A stretch of 39,029 nt of DNA, taken from IMG/VR virus record IMGVR_UViG_3300022818_000006, positions 1-39,029 of that record. One strand, written 5' to 3'. The stretch is from a virus. Each line of letters starts with the position of its first letter. Within the stretch, counting starts at the first letter, position 1. Below the pieces are notes generated by a model, which was given only the letters and a program-made list of their open reading frames with translations, was not told where the DNA came from and made no database searches. Shown one piece after another: positions 5,308 to 24,946 of this stretch. The position numbers and the translations under genes are program-made.

Positions 5308-7272
5308 TCAGAGCGGTACGATAGCCTTCGAATTTTCTAGCTGCTTGTCGTGCATCTGCATTGCAACAATTTGCTTCTTTGATGTCACTTCTTCCTCTTG
5401 GAGCATCAGTTCAGCAACCTTTACGCGACGATTAAACTCAGCATTTGGGTCTTGAGACGGTAAGTTCCGCGAAATCGACGATAAAACCTTAGCTTTTGTT
5501 TCTTCTGGCGCAAGTTGAGCCTCAACAGTCGTTTTCTGTGCGTTTGCCCGTTCATTTTGCACCCTAGCGTCAAGTAATTCCATTTCTTTTTGCTGTTGAA
5601 TTTGAACCATTTGTGCCTGTTGTGGGTTCGGCTGGCTTGCCTTCGCCATTTGCTGCAACATTTCCTCGCGGTTACTCAGAGACGAGTTTTTCACGATACC
5701 CTGCATCAAAATCGAAGTCAACGGGCTGTTTGCACCCAATGTCTGAATCAGGAACGCAAGCTGTTTCTGCTCATATTCTCTAGCGATGATCCCCAAGGTG
5801 GCCGTTGGCAGGATTTTCGCGTTTACTGAGGGGTAGCGTTCAGGGTCAAACTGCATGTATCGCCATGACGCCTTGTTGATGAACGGAATAATGAAGTCCT
5901 CTTGGATATTGACCAATGCGCGCTTGTACTTCTTAATAATCGTCGCTGTCGCCATGTCCAGACCACCCGCATCACGACTAACCTGACTAACCTGACCGTT
6001 GGAGTCCACCGTACCAGTTGCCATTAACAGCATACGCTCGAACTCTTTGCTGGTGTTCATGGCCGCACCGTCATTCGTACCAAACTGGAAAGGATAGATG
6101 ATGTCCTGTGGTGCACCGTTGGTCATAAACGCCTTACCCGGCTTGACTTCGAACTTAGCCCCTCGTGGTAAACGTGTGGCATCCATTGCGATCATAGGGC
6201 TTACTGTCAGCGCCAGTGAGTCCATATGACTACGCATTGACCCATCAATCGCCATCTGCATGTTAAACGCCTTCTCCACTGTCCCGCGACCAAGCAAACG
6301 GTTTGGTACAGTATCGTCCTGATACGTCAGCACAGGGCGATCCTTCATCATGTAGGGCGACTCCTCTGCCTTCAACAGTAGCTCACCATTGGCGATCACC
6401 ACAATCGCCTCAACCATGTCAGAGTACTCCTCTATCTCGTCGCTGAACTCGACCGTCTCAGTAATCTCCCCCACTAGGCACTCTCTAGGAACCAGACCAT
6501 AGTAGGTCATCAACAGAATCTTGTTATCTTGGAAGTTGATAATCTCCTGACTTGGTTCGAGACTATCATCTTTATACAATGTGCCTATATCGACGTTCTT
6601 GTATTTCCCCGATGCAATGCCTTCAGCGACCTTGTGTACTGATACATACCGTTCAATCGCGACCCCCATACAGTCGTCCACACTGATACCATTAGGGTCA
6701 AATAGAAAGTTTTTCGGGTTTACTGGTACTAGGCGTACAAAGGTGCGTTTGCCCTCCTTTACCCCATATGCCTGTGTCTGTCGATCCATCGGGATACTAT
6801 GAGGAACATATGTCTTCTCCTCTCCTACGATAATCTCACCAATCCCAGTACCGTAAATCTCTGCCATCAGCTCAATGTGATCAATGGACTTACGAATCTT
6901 ATCGCGTTGGAAGTCCTCGTTCAGATTCGCCTTCAACCGCTCAGCCTCTGGTCCCTCGATATCAAAGAACTCACCCTGACCAAACACAGCCTCCATCACC
7001 TCAGCGTGGCGTGTCTCCACTGCCTGCTGAGTGGCAGGACTGATGACACGGGAACGCTCACTTTGCCGACCTTTGTCCTCTGCTGCCCACTTACCTGAAA
7101 ATATGCGCTCATAAGTTGACCATTGGTCCATGTGATTCTGATCACGGTACTGCCGCCAGCGGTCAGTGTGATCAAGAATAAACTCTACCAAGTCTTCATC
7201 TGATTCAGTTGGTGTGTAGAAGTTTGTCTCAGGTTCAACATCTTCACCATCGATGATTTGCGGGTCTGCCAT
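5308..7272 (-). CDS. Portal protein (podovirus type)
   Basis: A 654-residue protein, ATG at 7272 with AGGAG eight bases upstream, directly after the large terminase in the late operon. The N-terminal half carries typical portal stem/wing sequence: RSRVISPATQQAVETRHAEV, then a VPVNPKNFLFDPNG strand and a long acidic insertion. Residues about 335-400 have the ...DRPVLTYQDDTVPNRLLGRG... region common to P22-like and related podovirus portals. The last about 100 residues are strongly helical and coiled (Gln/Glu/Lys-rich), matching a portal barrel. It forms the dodecameric DNA channel and docks terminase. Length is between T7-type (about 535) and P22-type (about 725) portals. Confidence 0.88.
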   Translation of the reverse strand: MADPQIIDGEDVEPETNFYTPTESDEDLVEFILDHTDRWRQYRDQNHMDQWSTYERIFSGKWAAEDKGRQSERSRVISPATQQAVETRHAEVMEAVFGQGEFFDIEGPEAERLKANLNEDFQRDKIRKSIDHIELMAEIYGTGIGEIIVGEEKTYVPHSIPMDRQTQAYGVKEGKRTFVRLVPVNPKNFLFDPNGISVDDCMGVAIERYVSVHKVAEGIASGKYKNVDIGTLYKDDSLEPSQEIINFQDNKILLMTYYGLVPRECLVGEITETVEFSDEIEEYSDMVEAIVVIANGELLLKAEESPYMMKDRPVLTYQDDTVPNRLLGRGTVEKAFNMQMAIDGSMRSHMDSLALTVSPMIAMDATRLPRGAKFEVKPGKAFMTNGAPQDIIYPFQFGTNDGAAMNTSKEFERMLLMATGTVDSNGQVSQVSRDAGGLDMATATIIKKYKRALVNIQEDFIIPFINKASWRYMQFDPERYPSVNAKILPTATLGIIAREYEQKQLAFLIQTLGANSPLTSILMQGIVKNSSLSNREEMLQQMAKASQPNPQQAQMVQIQQQKEMELLDARVQNERANAQKTTVEAQLAPEETKAKVLSSISRNLPSQDPNAEFNRRVKVAELMLQEEEVTSKKQIVAMQMHDKQLENSKAIVPL

Positions 7273-7313
7273 ATACCATACTCCTAGGATTAGCGTGAGT
7301 GTACTACAAGGTG

Positions 7314-8582
7314 TTAAATTCCGGCAGTCTCATCTAGAGGCTCCCACTCCTCATCATCAGTCTGTTTGGAATAAGTTGTTGTAACTAAATTCGCAACAAG
7401 GCTCAAAGAATCTATCAGATCATCATGTGACTTCTTAGACGGAAACGACACATACTCCTTCTTAAATTGTGCCCAGTCTTCTCGTTTGTTTAACGTAATG
7501 CGGCCATGTTCAAACAAACCCTGAAGGTTGTAAGTGATTCGATTCTCTTTCGATCCACTGATCTGAATCTGCTCAATATGGGCAAAGACATTGTTCTTCC
7601 TCATTAAGTCGCTCAAATACGGCATAAGCGCCCTGGCAAGTGACCCTCGCTCAACCCCTACTACCATAGGCTTGTGGGTGCGAATCGCCAACAGTATGCG
7701 TACAGCAGTTTCTCGTACGTCCCATCGACCATAGTCGATCTTCCTCACGAACCATTTGCCATCGTCAGTGATTGTTACTACAGCAATAGCGGTGTTATCA
7801 AGGTGCTTCTTTTTACTCGAGTCAGCCACGTTCTCAAAACCAGCGGGGTCAACTGCGATAAACGTGTCTCCATCAGCAGGCGCCTTATCGCCGTACAGCA
7901 ACCACGACTCCCTGAAGATATTCTCGCCCATGGTGTCGAATGACGCCTCGTACTCCTGAGCGAAGTGTGCGGTGCTGAGCGTCTTTCTCGCGGCCTCGAT
8001 CTCTTTCGGGTCGATCAACTCATTGTCTCTAGTGGTGAAGTGCCATGACTGCCACTCTGGGTCACGGTTCTCGCCAGTACCAATCCCTAACTCGTACTGG
8101 TCTCGAAATTCTGAATCACCCGGCTCAGGTGTCCCAATAATCAGCGCCGTACCCTTCAAGTCAGATAACGCAGGGCGAATAATCAACGGCCACACATTGA
8201 GCTTAAAGTCCTTGGATTCATCTGTAACCACATGGTAGAGTTTGAAACCACGTAACGCATCGGGGTTATCACTACCGCGTATGCGCAGTTTCACGCCATT
8301 GACCAAAGTGATTTCACCATCGTTTACGTTTGACTTCGCCACTACCGAAGGGGCTAACGTGTTTAACAAGTCCCACATGAGGGTTTTTGCCATCCCATAC
8401 GTGGGTGCTACGTAGAGCACTGTGGCATCAGTGTGGGTGCACTCAAGACCTTTCACGATCATATCGATACCAGAGAACCTAGTCTTACCACACCGACGAC
8501 CAGCTACGACGACTTTAAACCGGCTCTTGGATGCCATGACCTCCTGCTGCCAGCGTAGTAGTTTGAATGATAGGTCAGACAT
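7314..8582 (-). CDS. terL: Terminase large subunit
   Basis: A 422-residue ATPase-nuclease. Start is the ATG at 8582 (MSDLSF), overlapping the end of the small subunit; the preceding TTG is ignored. Walker A is AGRRCGKT (residues 27-34). Walker B is VVTDE (118-122). A coupling motif is IIGTPEPGD (148-156). The C-terminal RNase H-like nuclease shows FIAVDPAG, VVGVERGS and SHDDLIDSLSL with the acidic residues expected for metal binding. It pumps DNA into the procapsid through the portal and cuts the concatemer. Length is close to the usual 420-550. Packaging type (headful or defined ends) cannot be decided from the sequence alone. Confidence 0.93.
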   Translation of the reverse strand: MSDLSFKLLRWQQEVMASKSRFKVVVAGRRCGKTRFSGIDMIVKGLECTHTDATVLYVAPTYGMAKTLMWDLLNTLAPSVVAKSNVNDGEITLVNGVKLRIRGSDNPDALRGFKLYHVVTDESKDFKLNVWPLIIRPALSDLKGTALIIGTPEPGDSEFRDQYELGIGTGENRDPEWQSWHFTTRDNELIDPKEIEAARKTLSTAHFAQEYEASFDTMGENIFRESWLLYGDKAPADGDTFIAVDPAGFENVADSSKKKHLDNTAIAVVTITDDGKWFVRKIDYGRWDVRETAVRILLAIRTHKPMVVGVERGSLARALMPYLSDLMRKNNVFAHIEQIQISGSKENRITYNLQGLFEHGRITLNKREDWAQFKKEYVSFPSKKSHDDLIDSLSLVANLVTTTYSKQTDDEEWEPLDETAGI

Positions 8583-9152: not shown

Positions 9153-9545
9153 TTAAGGAGTTCTAGTTTGTTTTCCGAAGCCAGTTATCAAGGAATCTGT
9201 TAAAGGGTTATAAGTTGTTTTCTGAGGCTGAGTGTCATATGAACCTTTATGCAATTCACTCCTAACCCTCCCCCCCCTGGCTGGCCGTGCCCCAGGAGCA
9301 GGAGCAGGTGCAGCAGGTGCAGCAGGTGCAGCAGGTGCAGGAGCAGGTGCAGCAGGTGCAGCAGGCACAGCAGGTGCAGCAGGTGCAGCAGGTGCAGCAG
9401 GTGCAGGTGCAGCAGGTGCAGCAGGTGCAGCAGGTGCAGCAGGTGCAGCAGGTGCAGGCACAGCAGGCACAGCAGGCACAGCAGGTGCAGGTGCAGCAGG
9501 CACGGCAGGCACGGCAGGTGCATTAACCCACCACTGTACACCCAA
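9153..9545 (-). CDS. Pro/Ala-repeat protein upstream of the terminase genes
   Basis: An open frame of up to 130 codons in the late-gene orientation, ending 9 bp before the earliest possible terS start. About 75 central residues are APA/APV/AAP repeats; the C-terminal 40 residues are ordinary and coding-like (SELHKGSYDTQ, then TTYNPLTDSLITGFGKQ). Only TTG (9545) or internal GTG starts exist and no ribosome site is seen, so the N-terminus is unsure. A run of eight G in the coding strand (9270-9277) lies at the repeat/C-terminus junction and could slip. On the other strand the same DNA reads as collagen-like Gly-Ala-Ala. I favour the minus strand because of the C-terminus and operon position. 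Confidence 0.45.
   Translation of the reverse strand: MGVQWWVNAPAVPAVPAAPAPAVPAVPAVPAPAAPAAPAAPAAPAAPAPAAPAAPAAPAVPAAPAAPAPAPAAPAAPAAPAPAPGARPARGGRVRSELHKGSYDTQPQKTTYNPLTDSLITGFGKQTRTP
9293..9522. repeat. GCAGGT-type low-complexity repeat block
   Basis: About 230 bp made almost only of GCAGGTGCA, GCAGGA and GCAGGCACA variants with a 3-base and 9-base period. It encodes Pro/Ala repeats on the minus strand and Gly-Ala-Ala collagen-like repeats on the plus strand. Such DNA is prone to expansion and contraction. Confidence 0.9.
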
Positions 9546-21101: not shown

Positions 21102-21467
21102 ATGAACATTGAAGACCTAACCTTAAAACAAATTCGTGAAATCCAGGCTCTCACCACTGGTGCATCACGTATCCCTCCTAGTACACATCCGTTTGTTGGA
21201 AAGTACGTTATTGCACGCTGCTACTCTGCCGGAGTACACGCTGGCACGGTTGCCAGTGTGGACGGAGAAAACGTCATCCTCAAAGACAGCCGCAGGCTAT
21301 GGAGCTGGAAAGCTAGAGATGGTGTGGCGCTGTCTGGTGTTGCTCAGAACGGACTTAAATCAGAAGGGAAAGTTGACACAGTTAATCCTGAAATTGCACT
21401 GATGGGAGTGTGTGAATTGATACCATGCAGCGTGAAAGCGCGGGAGTCTATTGATGGCTTCAAATAA
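21102..21467 (+). CDS. DUF6948-like phage protein
   Basis: A 121-residue protein, ATG 21102 with AAAGGAAAAA. The central HPFVGKYVIARCYSAGVHAG followed by VILKDSRRLWSWKARDGV, and the closing ELIPCSVKARESIDGF, match a small beta-barrel family (DUF6948 as I recall it) found in many phages, usually followed by a Gly-rich repeat gene, as here. Function unknown. The end overlaps the next gene by 14 bp. Confidence 0.75.
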   Translation: MNIEDLTLKQIREIQALTTGASRIPPSTHPFVGKYVIARCYSAGVHAGTVASVDGENVILKDSRRLWSWKARDGVALSGVAQNGLKSEGKVDTVNPEIALMGVCELIPCSVKARESIDGFK

Positions 21468-21747
21468 GAATTTCAGATACGACTCCGGCTACGGCTACGG
21501 CTACGGATCCGGCGACGGCGACGGCTCCGGCTACGGCTCTGGCGCCTGCTACAGCTCCGGCTCCGGCTACGGCTCCGGCGACGGCTCCGGCTACGGCTAC
21601 GGCTCCGGCGACGGCGACGGCTCCGGCTCCGGCTACGGCTACGGCTACGGCTACGGCTCCGGCGACGGCGACGGCTACGGCTACGGCGACGGCTCTGGCG
21701 CCTGCTACGGCTCCGGCTCCGGCTCCGGCTCCGGCGACGGAAACTAA
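21454..21747 (+). CDS. Gly-X dipeptide repeat protein
   Basis: Ninety-seven residues from ATG 21454 (GGGAG site). After MASNKNFRYDS nearly every second residue is Gly and the others are Ser, Tyr or Asp (for example GYGYGYGSGDGDGSGYG), with two GAC-Y interruptions. Codons are almost all GGC plus TAC, TCC or GAC, so the DNA is a 6-bp quasi-repeat that can change length. I recall such genes paired with DUF6948 genes in other phages. The protein is expected to be disordered; role unknown. The last codons touch the start of the cassette array. Confidence 0.75.
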   Translation: MASNKNFRYDSGYGYGYGSGDGDGSGYGSGACYSSGSGYGSGDGSGYGYGSGDGDGSGSGYGYGYGYGSGDGDGYGYGDGSGACYGSGSGSGSGDGN

Positions 21748-21782: not shown

Positions 21783-21835
21783 ATTAAACGAGGGCGCGGG
21801 TATTGTTCCGCGTCCGCTCGAACGCAGGGTTAGAA
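21783..21835 (+). other. attC-like site 0 (left boundary of array)
   Basis: R'' ATTAAAC (21783-21789), R' GTTAGAA (21829-21835). The inner stem pairs GAGGGCGCGG with CCGCGTCCGCTC, leaving two unpaired bases on the right arm. No cassette partner for this R'' is found upstream, so it is probably the remnant end of an earlier cassette. Confidence 0.75.
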
Positions 21836-21858
21836 CTCTGTGCAATTCGGAGAAAGAT

Positions 21859-22065
21859 ATGGAAACCAAAACTATCAGATTTTGTGAATTCACTGGCGAC
21901 GGCGAGCATGACTTTGATGAGGTCGGATACAAGAAGAAATGCCCGCACATCGGAATCATGGACAACTGCCTGCTGCACAAGAAACCCCTCGGAGAGTATG
22001 AAGGTTGGCGTGTGTGCTGCGCGGAATGCACGATACCTGTGCAGGTAAAGACAAGTGAGTTCTAA
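21859..22065 (+). CDS. Cassette 1 protein, Cys-rich, unknown function
   Basis: Sixty-eight residues from ATG 21859 (GGAG site), 24 bases after the R' box. It begins METKTIRFCEFTGDG and contains seven Cys/His-type pairs: CPH at about residue 28, CLLH, and CCAEC near residue 53, which suggest a small zinc-binding fold. The frame extends upstream to an ATG at 21748, but that would run through attC site 0, so I use 21859. The TAA stop lies inside the R'' box of attC 1. Function unknown. Confidence 0.65.
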   Translation: METKTIRFCEFTGDGEHDFDEVGYKKKCPHIGIMDNCLLHKKPLGEYEGWRVCCAECTIPVQVKTSEF

Positions 22066-22113
22066 CGCAGAGTCGAGCACCCCGCAGGGTGTGACTCGGA
22101 CGCCCTGTTAAAT
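22060..22113 (+). other. attC site 1
   Basis: R'' TTCTAAC (22060-22066) and R' GTTAAAT (22107-22113). Inner stem GAGTC/GACTC continues to CACCC/GGGTG with unequal unpaired bases between (GAG against T). 54 bp. Confidence 0.9.
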
Positions 22114-22138
22114 GACAAAACTTTGAACGGAGAAAAAC

Positions 22139-22441
22139 ATGGGCAACTGCAAAAACTGCGGCAGTTTCGCGGTGAACCACCATTGCCACGGTCGGGACGG
22201 TGGCGACGCTGATTTATGTGATGTTTGCTACTGGCGCAAACGGGCAAATGATGCGATGGCTGCATTGTTGTCTGTAGCCGCGACACTGGCTTGGACCTGC
22301 TTTGGCGAGTGCCGCGTGTACGACGCCTACGGGCACCAGGGGGAAATAGCAAGTCCTGCAGAAGCAGATGCCATTGCAAAGAGCGTTCTGTCTTTGCCAT
22401 TTAACGCCGGAGATAAGCCGCCGCAGGTCGGCCTTGATTGA
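22139..22441 (+). CDS. Cassette 2 protein, zinc-ribbon type
   Basis: One hundred residues from ATG 22139 (GGAG site), 26 bases after the R' box. The N-terminus MGNCKNCGSFAVNHHCHGR, then LCDVCYWRKRAND, has three CxxC-like pairs typical of a zinc finger. It aligns by eye with the N-terminus of the 24491-24946 protein (NCGSYAFN ... YCDRHYW). The C-terminal part from about residue 85 is read through attC 2, so the cassette recombination site is also coding sequence. I infer a DNA- or RNA-binding role only from the zinc motif. Confidence 0.65.
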   Translation: MGNCKNCGSFAVNHHCHGRDGGDADLCDVCYWRKRANDAMAALLSVAATLAWTCFGECRVYDAYGHQGEIASPAEADAIAKSVLSLPFNAGDKPPQVGLD

Positions 22442-22451
22442 CCTGTTATGC
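22399..22451 (+). other. attC site 2
   Basis: R'' ATTTAAC (22399-22405) and R' GTTATGC (22445-22451). Inner stem AAGCCG pairs with CGGCCTT with one unpaired base. The site overlaps the 3' end of cassette 2's gene. 53 bp. Confidence 0.9.
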
Positions 22452-22474
22452 AGCAATGCTGCCGAAGGGAACGT

Positions 22475-23236
22475 ATGCAAAGACTAGTATGTTGGTTTAG
22501 CTGTGGTGCCGCCAGTGCGGTTGCCACAAAGTTGGCGATTGCGGCCTATGGCCTGACGCATGAAATTGTGGTTGCCCGCTGCGTGGTGCGCGAAGAGCAT
22601 ACCGACAACGACCGCTTCGCCGCTGACTGTGAGAAGTGGTTCGGCTTGCCGATCACGAACATGATTGCGGCTGACTATGACGGTAGCGTTTACAACGTAA
22701 TCACCAAGCGCAAATACATTGCCGGGAACGAAGGCGCACCCTGCACGATGCTGCTGAAAAAGAAGGTGCGCGAGGACTTCCAGCGGTCCGACGACAAGCA
22801 TGTATTCGGGTACTGCGCGGAAGAACAAGGCCGGTACGATGACTTTTTGGACGCCAACAATATCGACTGTGAAGTGCCGCTGATTGATCGCCAGTTGAGC
22901 CATGCAAACTGCTTGGCGATGATTCAAGACGCTGGAATCGAATTGCCGACTATGTACAAGTTGGGCTACCAGCACAACAACTGCATTGGCTGCGTGAAGT
23001 CTTCAGGCGCCGGCTACTGGAACAAGATCAAGCTGGATTTCCCCGAGCGGTTTTGGATGATGGCCGGAATGTCCCGCGCACTGGGGGTGAAGATGGTAAA
23101 GATCACCGTCGCCAAAAACACAGAGGAGCGCATTTACCTCGACGAATTGAAACCCGGCGTAGGCCGATACCAAGACGAGCCCGAGATTCAGTGCGGCATT
23201 TTTTGTGAAGCCGCGCAACGTGAACTTGCGGCATAA
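22475..23236 (+). CDS. Cassette 3: PAPS-reductase/ATP-pyrophosphatase-like protein
   Basis: 253 residues from ATG 22475 (AAGGGAA site). The N-terminal PP-loop variant is WFSCGAASAVATKLA (residues 7-21). Further blocks seen in this family are GAPCTMLLKKKVREDFQR, HVFGYCAEEQGR and GYQHNNCIGCVKSSG with two Cys, and RIYLDELKPG near the C-terminus. It resembles phage- and island-borne PAPS reductase-like proteins related in fold to DndC, so it may use ATP for sulfur or nucleotide chemistry; the reaction is unknown. The upstream ATG at 22448 lies inside attC 2 and is rejected. The stop is in the R'' box of attC 3. It is by far the largest cassette gene. Confidence 0.85.
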   Translation: MQRLVCWFSCGAASAVATKLAIAAYGLTHEIVVARCVVREEHTDNDRFAADCEKWFGLPITNMIAADYDGSVYNVITKRKYIAGNEGAPCTMLLKKKVREDFQRSDDKHVFGYCAEEQGRYDDFLDANNIDCEVPLIDRQLSHANCLAMIQDAGIELPTMYKLGYQHNNCIGCVKSSGAGYWNKIKLDFPERFWMMAGMSRALGVKMVKITVAKNTEERIYLDELKPGVGRYQDEPEIQCGIFCEAAQRELAA

Positions 23237-23287
23237 CGCTGGCGGTAAGCCGCCGCGTAGCGAGTCGGATTGACCAACCTGTTAGCC
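23231..23287 (+). other. attC site 3
   Basis: R'' GCATAAC (23231-23237) and R' GTTAGCC (23281-23287). Stem GGTAAGCCG pairs with CGGATTGACC with an extra base on the right. 57 bp. Confidence 0.9.
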
Positions 23288-23331
23288 GTCGCAGGACAAA
23301 CGACGGCAATAAAACTTTGAAAGACCAAACC

Positions 23332-23661
23332 ATGAGCAACACTGAAAACGACATTGAAGCCCTGATACAGGCCAAAGGATTGACCCGCCCTCGACTGACG
23401 CCGCAAGACGTGGACGCCGCGATTAAGGACGAGACTTACACAACGCTGCCGAGCGACAAGGTGATGGTATGTGAACTTACCTTGCGCAATGGATTCACGG
23501 TTCGCGGCGAGGCGGCGGTGGTAAGTAAAGCAAACTTCAACGAGGAAGTTGGCCGAAAGATCAGCCGCGAGAACGCACGAAACAAAGTGTGGGAGTTGGA
23601 AGGCTACCTTCTGCAAGAGCGCCTGTATCAATCCGTGGTCCCGCCGCAGTCACCGACCTAA
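23332..23661 (+). CDS. Cassette 4: phage Gp49/Gp66-like family protein
   Basis: 109 residues from ATG 23332; the ribosome site is weak. The pattern LTPQDVDAAIKDE, VCELTLRNGFTVRGEAAVV and FNEEVGRKISRENARNKVWE matches the phage N4 Gp49/Sf6 gene 66 family, small proteins of unknown function otherwise found in phages and prophages. Here it is in an integron cassette, so a phage gene seems to have been turned into a cassette. The stop lies in the first of two 23-bp repeats, and attC 4 follows 55 bp later. Confidence 0.85.
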   Translation: MSNTENDIEALIQAKGLTRPRLTPQDVDAAIKDETYTTLPSDKVMVCELTLRNGFTVRGEAAVVSKANFNEEVGRKISRENARNKVWELEGYLLQERLYQSVVPPQSPT

Positions 23662-23691
23662 AGGCCACGCAGTCACCGACCTAAAGGCCAC
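23646..23691 (+). repeat. 23-bp direct duplication at the end of cassette 4
   Basis: Two identical 23-bp copies (23646-23668, 23669-23691; core CACCGACCTAAAGGCCAC) plus a partial third. The stop codon of cassette 4 is in the first copy, so the duplication did not extend the protein. Confidence 0.95.
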
Positions 23692-23716
23692 GCCGTCACC
23701 GATGAAACTTGGTGAC

Positions 23717-23764
23717 GGCTAACGCAAAGGTCATCGGCTTGTCCGATGGACCGACCTGTTAAAC
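23717..23764 (+). other. attC site 4
   Basis: R'' GGCTAAC (23717-23723) and R' GTTAAAC (23758-23764). Stem GGTCATCGG pairs with CCGATGGACC, nine pairs with a single extra base on the right arm, around a CTTGT loop. 48 bp; the clearest hairpin of the set. Confidence 0.95.
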
Positions 23765-23785
23765 CGAATTTTTACCGAGGCCACC

Positions 23786-24043
23786 ATGGATGATAAGTGC
23801 ATGAATTGCAGATTTTGGAGCGTTTACGAAGTCGATGAAGCGGCAACATTCAAGCGCGGAACGTGCCGACGATTTCCGCCAGTGATTGACCTCATCGCTG
23901 TGAACGAGGAAGTGACGTTCTACAAAGAAAACGGCAAAGATGAGCCGGATGAGAACAGCCATTGCCCGACAGTTTGGACGCAATCAAGAACATGGCAAGA
24001 CGAATGGTGTGGGGAATATCAACCGATGCGGTTTAACGCTTGA
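23786..24043 (+). CDS. Cassette 5 protein, Cys-rich, unknown function
   Basis: Eighty-five residues from ATG 23786, 22 bases after R'. The pattern CMNCRFW, later GTCRRFPP, HCP and EWCGEY resembles a known type of small Cys-rich protein (C-x-x-C-R-F-W ... C-R-R ... W-C-G-E) found in phages and proteobacteria, probably metal binding. The last residues are encoded by the R'' box of attC 5 (FNA from the GTTTAACGC stretch). Confidence 0.75.
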   Translation: MDDKCMNCRFWSVYEVDEAATFKRGTCRRFPPVIDLIAVNEEVTFYKENGKDEPDENSHCPTVWTQSRTWQDEWCGEYQPMRFNA

Positions 24044-24097
24044 AGTGAGCGGGCTGAGCGGCTTTTTGCGAAGCTCCGCTCGACTGATGGGTTGGGC
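24031..24097 (+). other. attC site 5
   Basis: R'' GTTTAAC (24031-24037) and R' GTTGGGC (24091-24097), both perfect matches to RYYYAAC and GTTRRRY. Stem AGTGAGCGG pairs with CCGCTCGACT with one extra base on the right. 67 bp. Confidence 0.93.
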
Positions 24098-24121
24098 GGC
24101 AACGTAACTACGGAGAAAAGA

Positions 24122-24433
24122 ATGGCACAACTGATTTTGCACAAAGACGGAGCCTACAACATATACACGACGGTTGCTGACGGCGCTTGCTACGAAAGCG
24201 CACTGACGCTGGAGCAGCTAACAGAAGTGATTCGCGAAGAACGAGGCGAGCAAGGTTTGCGCGAACTGCCGGCCCGACTGGAGCGGGCGCACCGAACAGG
24301 GTGCAGTTCCATGCTCGATCCCGGCACGCTCGAAGAGTGCATTTCGTGCAACCGCGCCGGCCAGGACGAAACCGAATTGTCGGTTGATGAGTTCGTGGCG
24401 AAATACCTGACATTGACGCCCAACGCAATGTAG
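24122..24433 (+). CDS. Cassette 6 protein, unknown function
   Basis: 103 residues from ATG 24122 (CGGAGAAAAG site), 25 bases after the R' box. It begins MAQLILHKDGAYNIYTTVAD. The middle is Glu/Arg-rich helix (EVIREERGEQGLRELPARLE) and the C-terminus acidic (TELSVDEFVAKYLTL). A start at the upstream TTG would run through attC 5. The stop is just after the R'' box of site 6. No family recognised. Confidence 0.65.
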   Translation: MAQLILHKDGAYNIYTTVADGACYESALTLEQLTEVIREERGEQGLRELPARLERAHRTGCSSMLDPGTLEECISCNRAGQDETELSVDEFVAKYLTLTPNAM

Positions 24434-24461
24434 ACCGTCGCCTATTTCAGCAAGATTAGAC
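24418..24461 (+). other. attC site 6, degenerate or truncated
   Basis: R'' GCCCAAC (24418-24424) is intact and exactly complements the R' of attC 5. The other half is poor: the nearest candidate R' is ATTAGAC (24455-24461). A weak CGTCG/CGACG stem surrounds it. This may be the end of the array where phage sequence resumed. Confidence 0.55.
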
Positions 24462-24490
24462 GACGAAATATCCACAGGAAAGGACGAATC

Positions 24491-24946
24491 ATGAGCGAGA
24501 AACGCTGCAAATTTAAAGAAGGCACTCACAACTGCGGAAGTTATGCCTTCAACCTACACCAAGAGGGGATTGATCAGGGGAAGTACTGTGACAGGCATTA
24601 CTGGCAGAACCAGTGTTCGTTTCAGAAGAACCTATTGGACGAGCAGCAATGCACGATCAAGGCACTGAATGCTTGTATCGGTGCTGCAGACACGTCTCTT
24701 GAGACTATCAAAGTTGTGGATAGGTTGAGAGCGGAACTTGACCAGCTCCATTGTGATTCAGTGCGCATGCGCCTGGGGCTAATCATCGCAGACTACCGGG
24801 ACAAGCAGCAACGCGATAGAGCACTGCTATGTGAGACCACCCCCGTAGGACGCGTGTCTATGATACTGGGCTCGAAAGTCGGTTATCTGACAAATACAGA
24901 TTTGGCTGTTGGAACACTGCTTTACGCTGGGTTGATACAGGACTGA
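24491..24946 (+). CDS. Zinc-finger-like early protein, last gene of the plus operon
   Basis: A 151-residue protein, ATG 24491 (AAAGGA site). The N-terminus CKFKEGTHNCGSYAFN, then KYCDRHYW, looks like a zinc-binding motif and is related to the cassette 2 protein. The middle and C-terminal two thirds are coiled and helical (SLETIKVVDRLRAELDQ). Composition is closer to the phage's own genes than to the cassettes. It ends 29 bp before the last late gene, with which it converges. Role unknown. Confidence 0.7.
   Translation: MSEKRCKFKEGTHNCGSYAFNLHQEGIDQGKYCDRHYWQNQCSFQKNLLDEQQCTIKALNACIGAADTSLETIKVVDRLRAELDQLHCDSVRMRLGLIIADYRDKQQRDRALLCETTPVGRVSMILGSKVGYLTNTDLAVGTLLYAGLIQD

Follow-up and report, generated by a model that had tools for sequence, protein, structure and literature searches.

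The DNA analyzed here (the window) is the whole of IMG/VR virus record IMGVR_UViG_3300022818_000006, 39,029 bases of a phage that encodes a terminase, portal, major head protein, DNA polymerase, helicase, and endolysin. Early genes lie mostly on the plus strand up to about 25 kb and late genes on the minus strand; where the two meet, from 21.8 to 24.46 kb, sits an array of six short plus-strand genes with integron attC sites between them, in which the sites and the genes have opposite polarity. A first-pass annotation of the sequence had proposed six such genes separated by attC sites at 21783 to 24461, and both the genes, at those coordinates, and five full attC sites were recovered. It had also found no integrase, in agreement with our searches of the 39-kb record for a tyrosine recombinase or IntI, which gave no PF00589 and no TIGR02249 match.

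attC sites, boxes, and polarity

We built an attC covariance model from 12 sites, 10 from class 1 integron plasmids and 2 from phage TJE1, with none from the window. On the plasmids, the model placed attC parallel to the resistance genes, as expected. An unfiltered scan of the 39 kb, a check that the first-pass annotation had called for, returned exactly five attC sites, all in the array region and with E values of 2.7e-9 to 0.01 (the next match had E = 1.1). Across 1.07 Mb from 80 helicase relatives, the same model gave no match with E < 0.5. The sites of the array are as follows, with bit scores and E values from the model.

21787..21835, minus strand: s1, left terminal site; R'' (TTCTAAC on minus) and the L'' side recognizable, the other half degenerate
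22060..22113, minus strand: s2, attC; 19 bits, E = 0.01; boxes GTTAGAA/TTCTAAC
22399..22451, minus strand: s3, attC; 35 bits, E = 3.8e-7
23231..23287, minus strand: s4, attC; 34 bits, E = 1.1e-6
23717..23764, minus strand: s5, attC; 27 bits, E = 6e-5
24031..24097, minus strand: s6, attC, the strongest of the array; 43 bits, E = 2.7e-9
24418..24478, minus strand: s7, right terminal half-site; L'/R' side only (..GCGTTGGGC on minus)

All five full sites were on the minus strand and all six cassette genes on the plus strand. An extra C, the extrahelical base, occurred in L'' of the minus-strand reading at the same position in 5/5 sites, and this position together with the model ruled out a plus-strand attC polarity. 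What the first-pass annotation had said of attI absence and CALIN status (cluster of attC sites lacking integron-integrases) aside, its assignment of the R'' and R' boxes is thus reversed. The R''-L''-L'-R' hairpin architecture with an extrahelical base, which it had claimed for every site, is present in the five full sites; the two outer ones are degenerate or half. Site s1, at the distal array end in attC polarity, shares a 7-mer pair with position 22060 but was not found by the model. Site s7 forms a GTTGGGC/GCCCAAC pair with position 24091 and likewise has no model match. It was considered as an attI and rejected, as it has an attC R' context (GCGTT) and the phage attI motif described below is absent; its side of the array is where attI and intI would lie.

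In 6/6 cassettes the start box is the exact reverse complement, over 7 bases, of the cassette's own end box. The pairs are, in order, GTTAGAA/TTCTAAC, GTTAAAT/ATTTAAC, GTTATGC/GCATAAC, GTTAGCC/GGCTAAC, GTTAAAC/GTTTAAC, and GTTGGGC/GCCCAAC. A chain of six such pairs arose in 0 of 1000 dinucleotide shuffles, the longest shuffled chain being 4. (Chains of matched 7-mers with loose distances were too permissive, and this stricter shuffle test was used instead.) Such matching within each cassette is the signature of a former circular form.

The array does not have the canonical cassette layout, in which genes run parallel to attC polarity, since 6/6 genes run opposite. With at least two attC sites and no intI in the record, it is a CALIN within a phage genome, much as had been proposed: the model matches are above threshold, and three collinear relatives are free of the array. 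It is not a complete integron, as intI is absent and the right end is a half attC without an attI motif.

Inverted cassettes and phage integron integrases

The third cassette gene of the window (c3) identified 32 viral loci in IMG/VR. Among these records and close relatives, the covariance model found arrays in four besides the window (G001, G002, G003, and G011), all opposite to their genes. In G001 (L128/L107), inverted attC sites number at least eight, and the contig ends with a C5 DNA-methyltransferase-like gene. Two attC DNA pattern scans without gene information were chosen to avoid the bias of gene-based searches. An initial pattern scan was too strict, with G001 as its sole find; the attC pattern scans yielded 10 and 85 viral stretches. 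The first-pass annotation had called attC-bearing phage genomes rare, which does not hold in IMG/VR. In bacteria, the first attC pattern gave 55 stretches, mostly from Rhodocyclaceae, other Betaproteobacteria, and Methylococcaceae.

The strand of each cassette gene was called from a hexamer coding score between consecutive attC sites and rechecked at a strict threshold; a longest-open-reading-frame rule, which left many ambiguous calls in high-GC phages, was replaced by this score. Viral counts cover dereplicated metagenomic contigs from the pattern scans, the c3 loci, and the IntI loci, and viral contigs in IMG/VR are predictions. Metagenomic viral cassettes were mostly inverted (242 inverted, 33 canonical, 20 ambiguous), whereas bacterial cassettes of the same attC type were mostly canonical (8 inverted, 61 canonical, 6 ambiguous; Fisher P = 2e-34 on cassettes and 3e-14 on contig clusters). 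By cluster, 76/92 viral contig clusters were mainly inverted and 26/29 bacterial clusters mainly canonical. Under the strict score, the inverted-to-canonical ratio was 200:8 for viruses versus 6:51 for bacteria. The published phages H101/PH101 and MW202573 are also inverted. Viral contigs from isolate genomes, which were set apart, were mostly canonical (19:6). We take IMG numbers 25-29... to denote isolate genomes, which hence probably have host integrons inside, and a canonical majority is expected if host integrons are included.

Boxes matched within their own cassette in 32/54, 147/211, and 59/82 cassettes of three viral sets (3.9, 33.8, and 12.5 in shuffles) and in 52/75 of the bacterial set. 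Viral box matching is as good as bacterial and far above the shuffles, which marks them as true cassettes.

Three of 50 array-bearing records encode an IntI above the NCBIfam cut-off (G040, 47 kb; G045, 31 kb and Mu-like; and G050), and G055 has a fragment. In G040, G045, and G055, phage early genes or neighbors are followed by cassette genes and then intI, all on the same strand, and the attC sites point away from intI; G050 has its array and its intI at opposite ends of the contig. In the early region of G045 (L313, L315), a Mu-like transposable phage, an intact intI and inverted cassettes precede a gp16-like gene.

A scan of viral DNA for IntI found 236 stretches encoding relatives, of which 80 were fetched. 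Similarity to three phage IntIs was the basis for sampling the viral sequences, and the bacterial comparators were about 60 loci, mostly from Beta- and Gammaproteobacteria. Where attC lay upstream of intI, genes ran with intI in 41/44 loci. When the best coding frame upstream of intI was called without the attC model, 56 viral loci were codirectional and 3 divergent (n = 59); the same test on bacterial loci gave 6 codirectional, 43 divergent, and 3 ambiguous (n = 52). Viral intI genes were flanked by phage integrases, tail fibers, a terminase, and a Mu transposase.

The phage IntI aligns over its full length with Vibrio IntI4 (PDB 2A3V), the IntI-specific insertion included. Phylogenetic analysis with IQ-TREE placed 66 of the 80 sampled viral IntIs, together with one bacterial sequence (B_L413), in a single clade (support 100/99) that persisted after further bacterial IntIs were added. 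B_L413 comes from a Rhodocyclaceae metagenome-assembled genome, from a region with a phage integrase, CI-like and CII-like regulators, and the same layout as the viral loci; on this gene content, the region is prophage-like. About 75 to 190 bases upstream of intI, the motif RYYYAACTTNAATTC is conserved. The end box of the first cassette had an exact partner between the first attC and intI in 38/44 loci, and the majority of these 38 partners fell at an attI-like sequence within 200 bases, mostly at this motif, which is probably the phage attI. A LexA-like box upstream of phage intI was seen in 4/62 loci, so this pattern does not indicate SOS control.

L388 is the sole IntI locus with attC downstream of intI and on its strand. 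Contigs L329-L332 in IMG/VR carry an IntI1 identical or near-identical to that of class 1 plasmid integrons and may be phage-plasmids or wrongly assigned contigs.

Cassette genes and collinear relatives

The six cassette genes of the window, and the gene that follows them, are as follows.

21859..22065, plus strand: c1, cassette 1; open reading frame of 68 aa, no family
22139..22441, plus strand: c2, cassette 2; 100 aa, Cys-rich, weak match to phrog_31748
22475..23236, plus strand: c3, cassette 3; phage PAPS-reductase-like, phrog_424 (E = 2e-43)
23332..23661, plus strand: c4, cassette 4; Phage_gp49_66 (N4 gp49/Sf6 gp66), PF13876 (E = 8e-29)
23786..24043, plus strand: c5, cassette 5; 85 aa, phrog_15838 (E = 9e-5)
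24122..24433, plus strand: c6, cassette 6; open reading frame of 103 aa, no family above cut-off
24491..24946, plus strand: d151; in the place that intI occupies in complete phage integrons, similar to c2

The stop codon of c1 overlaps the R box at 22060, and c1 had no relatives in any fetched locus. The c3 family occurs as an inverted cassette in G001 and G002 too, and ordinary phage genes reach 78% identity to c3. In L007, L008, L029, L037, and L051, phages of the same family, a relative of c3 (46 to 48% identity) is an ordinary gene without attC, immediately ahead of the helicase gene; one gene family is thus both fixed gene and cassette. A homologue of c4 is found in an inverted cassette of L258, and a weak relative of c5 (29%) in an IntI-carrying viral contig (L325). 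Gene d151 shares 44% identity over 32 aa with c2 and is possibly a relic cassette; a viral scan with d151 returned zero relatives.

Three collinear relatives (G028, G029, and G031) have a terminase at 66 to 87%, a head protein at about 81%, and a helicase at 76 to 82% identity. The comparison with related phages suggested in the first-pass annotation bore out its expectation: none of the three has an attC by the covariance model or a homologue of the cassettes at the array's place, although the G028 genome encodes a 44% relative of c3 at another location. The array is an insertion specific to its lineage, placed where early genes give way to late ones. The same annotation had cast the phage as a vehicle moving cassettes between hosts. 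Our data do not favor this, as the cassette genes with recognizable relatives are phage-type and no cassette family was common to the viral and bacterial sets examined, a combination that fits traffic among phages better than ferrying of host cassettes.

Several features of the surrounding DNA may be recorded here. Directly left of the array, at 21451-21747, is a gene made almost entirely of GY/GS/GD repeats, and the contig of the closest relative, L006, ends in the same kind of repeat gene; assembly breaks there. The helicase gene of L006 (90% identity) is split at 7135-8260 by a stretch of about 1.1 kb whose ends are intein-like (..CLHPQTKVLT .. HNS), past which the helicase sequence picks up again. 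A long low-complexity Pro/Ala-rich frame at 9153-9545 of the window separates the terminase genes from the early region. An Rfam scan of the window gave no family at threshold.

Origin of the array and its relation to known integrons

Taken by itself, the window is another phage CALIN; the inverted layout is a new form of integron. By analogy with the intI-bearing viral loci, we consider it quite probable that the array is what remains of a phage-type integron after loss of its integrase. Such integrons, as proposed here, have genes flipped within their cassettes, as the window does, and a phage-clade intI at the gene-distal end; as the window lacks that intI, it can only be a derivative. More broadly, we think it likely, with less confidence, that phages hold a separate integron lineage with its own IntI clade, its own attI, and inverted accessory-gene cassettes exchanged among unrelated phages, largely closed to bacterial cassettes, and that the window is an integrase-less member. 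The two pools would be closed to each other because a canonical cassette inserted into a phage array would lie antisense to the operon there, and a phage cassette inserted into a bacterial integron would lie antisense to the Pc promoter.

The attC sites, box matching, polarity, IntI clade, layout relative to intI, and attI motif are all read directly in the DNA; recombination activity, read-through expression, exchange between phages, and loss of intI in the window are inferred. In its complete form, seen in other viral contigs, the element comprises the phage's own intI with attI just upstream, at the end of the early operon and often beside the phage integrase. IntI folds and recombines the bottom strand of attC, with insertion at attI in one orientation (PMC11023631). 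Cassettes would enter at attI by this usual reaction between a folded attC bottom strand and double-stranded attI, so that the attC sites point away from intI, just as they do in bacteria. With the gene flipped relative to attC, the genes then run toward intI and are codirectional with it. Flipped cassettes would form one operon read from a phage promoter, the newest cassette last, whereas bacterial cassette genes diverge from intI and are read from Pc, the newest cassette first. The cargo consists of small accessory genes of phages. In the window, intI and attI would have been lost, leaving a right end that stops in a half attC, and the cassettes could still move in trans through the IntI of a host or of a coinfecting or resident phage.

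Phage CALINs were described by Qi et al. in 2023 (PMC9892861), and most of the phage attC sites tested there recombined with attI1. Like the window, those CALINs consist of attC-flanked cassettes without an integrase, and those of PH101 and MW202573 are inverted as well. Of 10,705 genomes in that study, four phages were reported to carry an integrase (two Vibrio, one P1, and one Shewanella), and we read all four as host-type integrons. In the portion of the article drawn on here, the PH101 layout is called the most typical of bacterial arrays, and neither polarity nor a phage IntI clade or attI is mentioned. Our search of the open-access literature, with preprints and most subscription papers outside it, turned up no account of inversion as the rule for phage cassettes, nor of a phage IntI clade. 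The phage form shares with bacterial chromosomal and class 1 integrons the IntI catalytic residues and IntI-specific insertion, attI, attC, cassette boxes, and attC polarity away from intI. It differs in that genes are flipped in their cassettes and codirectional with intI, in its operon position instead of Pc, in its small phage accessory cargo, and in its separate IntI clade. The "reverse integrons" of Treponema (Coleman 2004; PMC3607928, PMC7691350) also have intI and genes codirectional. In these, however, intI is turned to face attI and the genes are canonical to attC, with the stop codon in R'', whereas in the phage form intI faces away from attI as usual and genes are flipped cassette by cassette; the phage form is therefore not of the Treponema type. 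The CALIN of Tetrasphaera phage TJE1 resembles the window in having attC-flanked small genes in a phage but differs in that attC and genes are parallel.

Several observations weigh against a phage-type origin or a separate lineage. The window has neither intI nor attI, so descent from an intI-bearing form is drawn by analogy, and the only wet-lab result on an inverted array is the recombination of PH101 attC sites by IntI1 in the work of Qi et al. Sampling viral IntIs by similarity to three phage IntIs favors a clade. A strict regular expression finds the attI motif in only 37/71 viral intI loci. Cassette sharing is modest, with 17 families among the viral set, some from near-identical contigs. 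Finally, 33 viral cassettes and 13/92 viral clusters were called canonical, and the TJE1 array is canonical.

One alternative is an ordinary CALIN, a piece of a host chromosomal integron captured by illegitimate or homologous recombination, with its inverted polarity accidental. Phage CALINs have been described and such capture was proposed for them (PMC9892861), Betaproteobacteria and Methylococcaceae commonly have attC sites of this type, and intI is absent from the window. Yet flipping a whole host array turns genes and attC together and leaves them parallel, whereas here the genes are flipped inside their cassettes. Of the bacterial cassettes with this attC type, 61 are canonical and 8 inverted, whereas every cassette of the window is inverted. 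The window's cassette genes are phage-type, and no cassette family was common to the viral and bacterial sets; we regard capture from a host as quite improbable. It is less probable still, and in our judgment highly improbable, that the hairpins are RNA or transcription elements (processing sites, weak terminators, or translation control) and not recombination sites today. They are indeed stem-loops between codirectional small genes, their boxes are overlapped by stop codons, and attC sites are thought to hold weak terminators (PMC9892861). Against this, the 7-base boxes match within the cassette and not within the site, as expected from recombination of circular cassettes but not from a role in structure alone. 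In 5/5 sites the extrahelical base also holds one conserved position, and relatives have intI and attI beside such arrays. Chance repeats or an artifact of pattern searching can be given a negligible probability. A single attC match near E = 0.01, the weakest of the five, can be chance, but five matches in one 2-kb stretch with none elsewhere below E = 1, zero in the 1.07 Mb of relatives, and 6/6 boxes against a shuffled maximum of 4 refute it.

A different kind of alternative concerns the cause of the inversion. It might serve recombination and not expression, by putting the attC bottom strand on the sense strand and hence, if replication follows transcription, on the lagging-strand template, where cassettes would be more mobile. 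In chromosomal integrons, the leading-strand template carries the attC bottom strands, and excision rises sharply when the Vibrio cholerae array is inverted (PMC11023631). The same polarity in unrelated phage lineages also asks for a selective cause. However, the codirectional operon layout alone accounts for the pattern, and the argument depends on the direction of phage replication; we therefore consider it rather unlikely as the explanation. It is compatible with a phage-type integron, for which greater mobility is a possible further benefit.

Integrons have been treated as bacterial devices and at most as accidental phage cargo. If the phage-type integron proposed here is real, it would give phages a site-specific, directional mechanism behind their accessory-gene mosaicism, and integron cassettes would fall into two pools separated by gene polarity. 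Existing attC tools could mine phage integrons at once if polarity were recorded.

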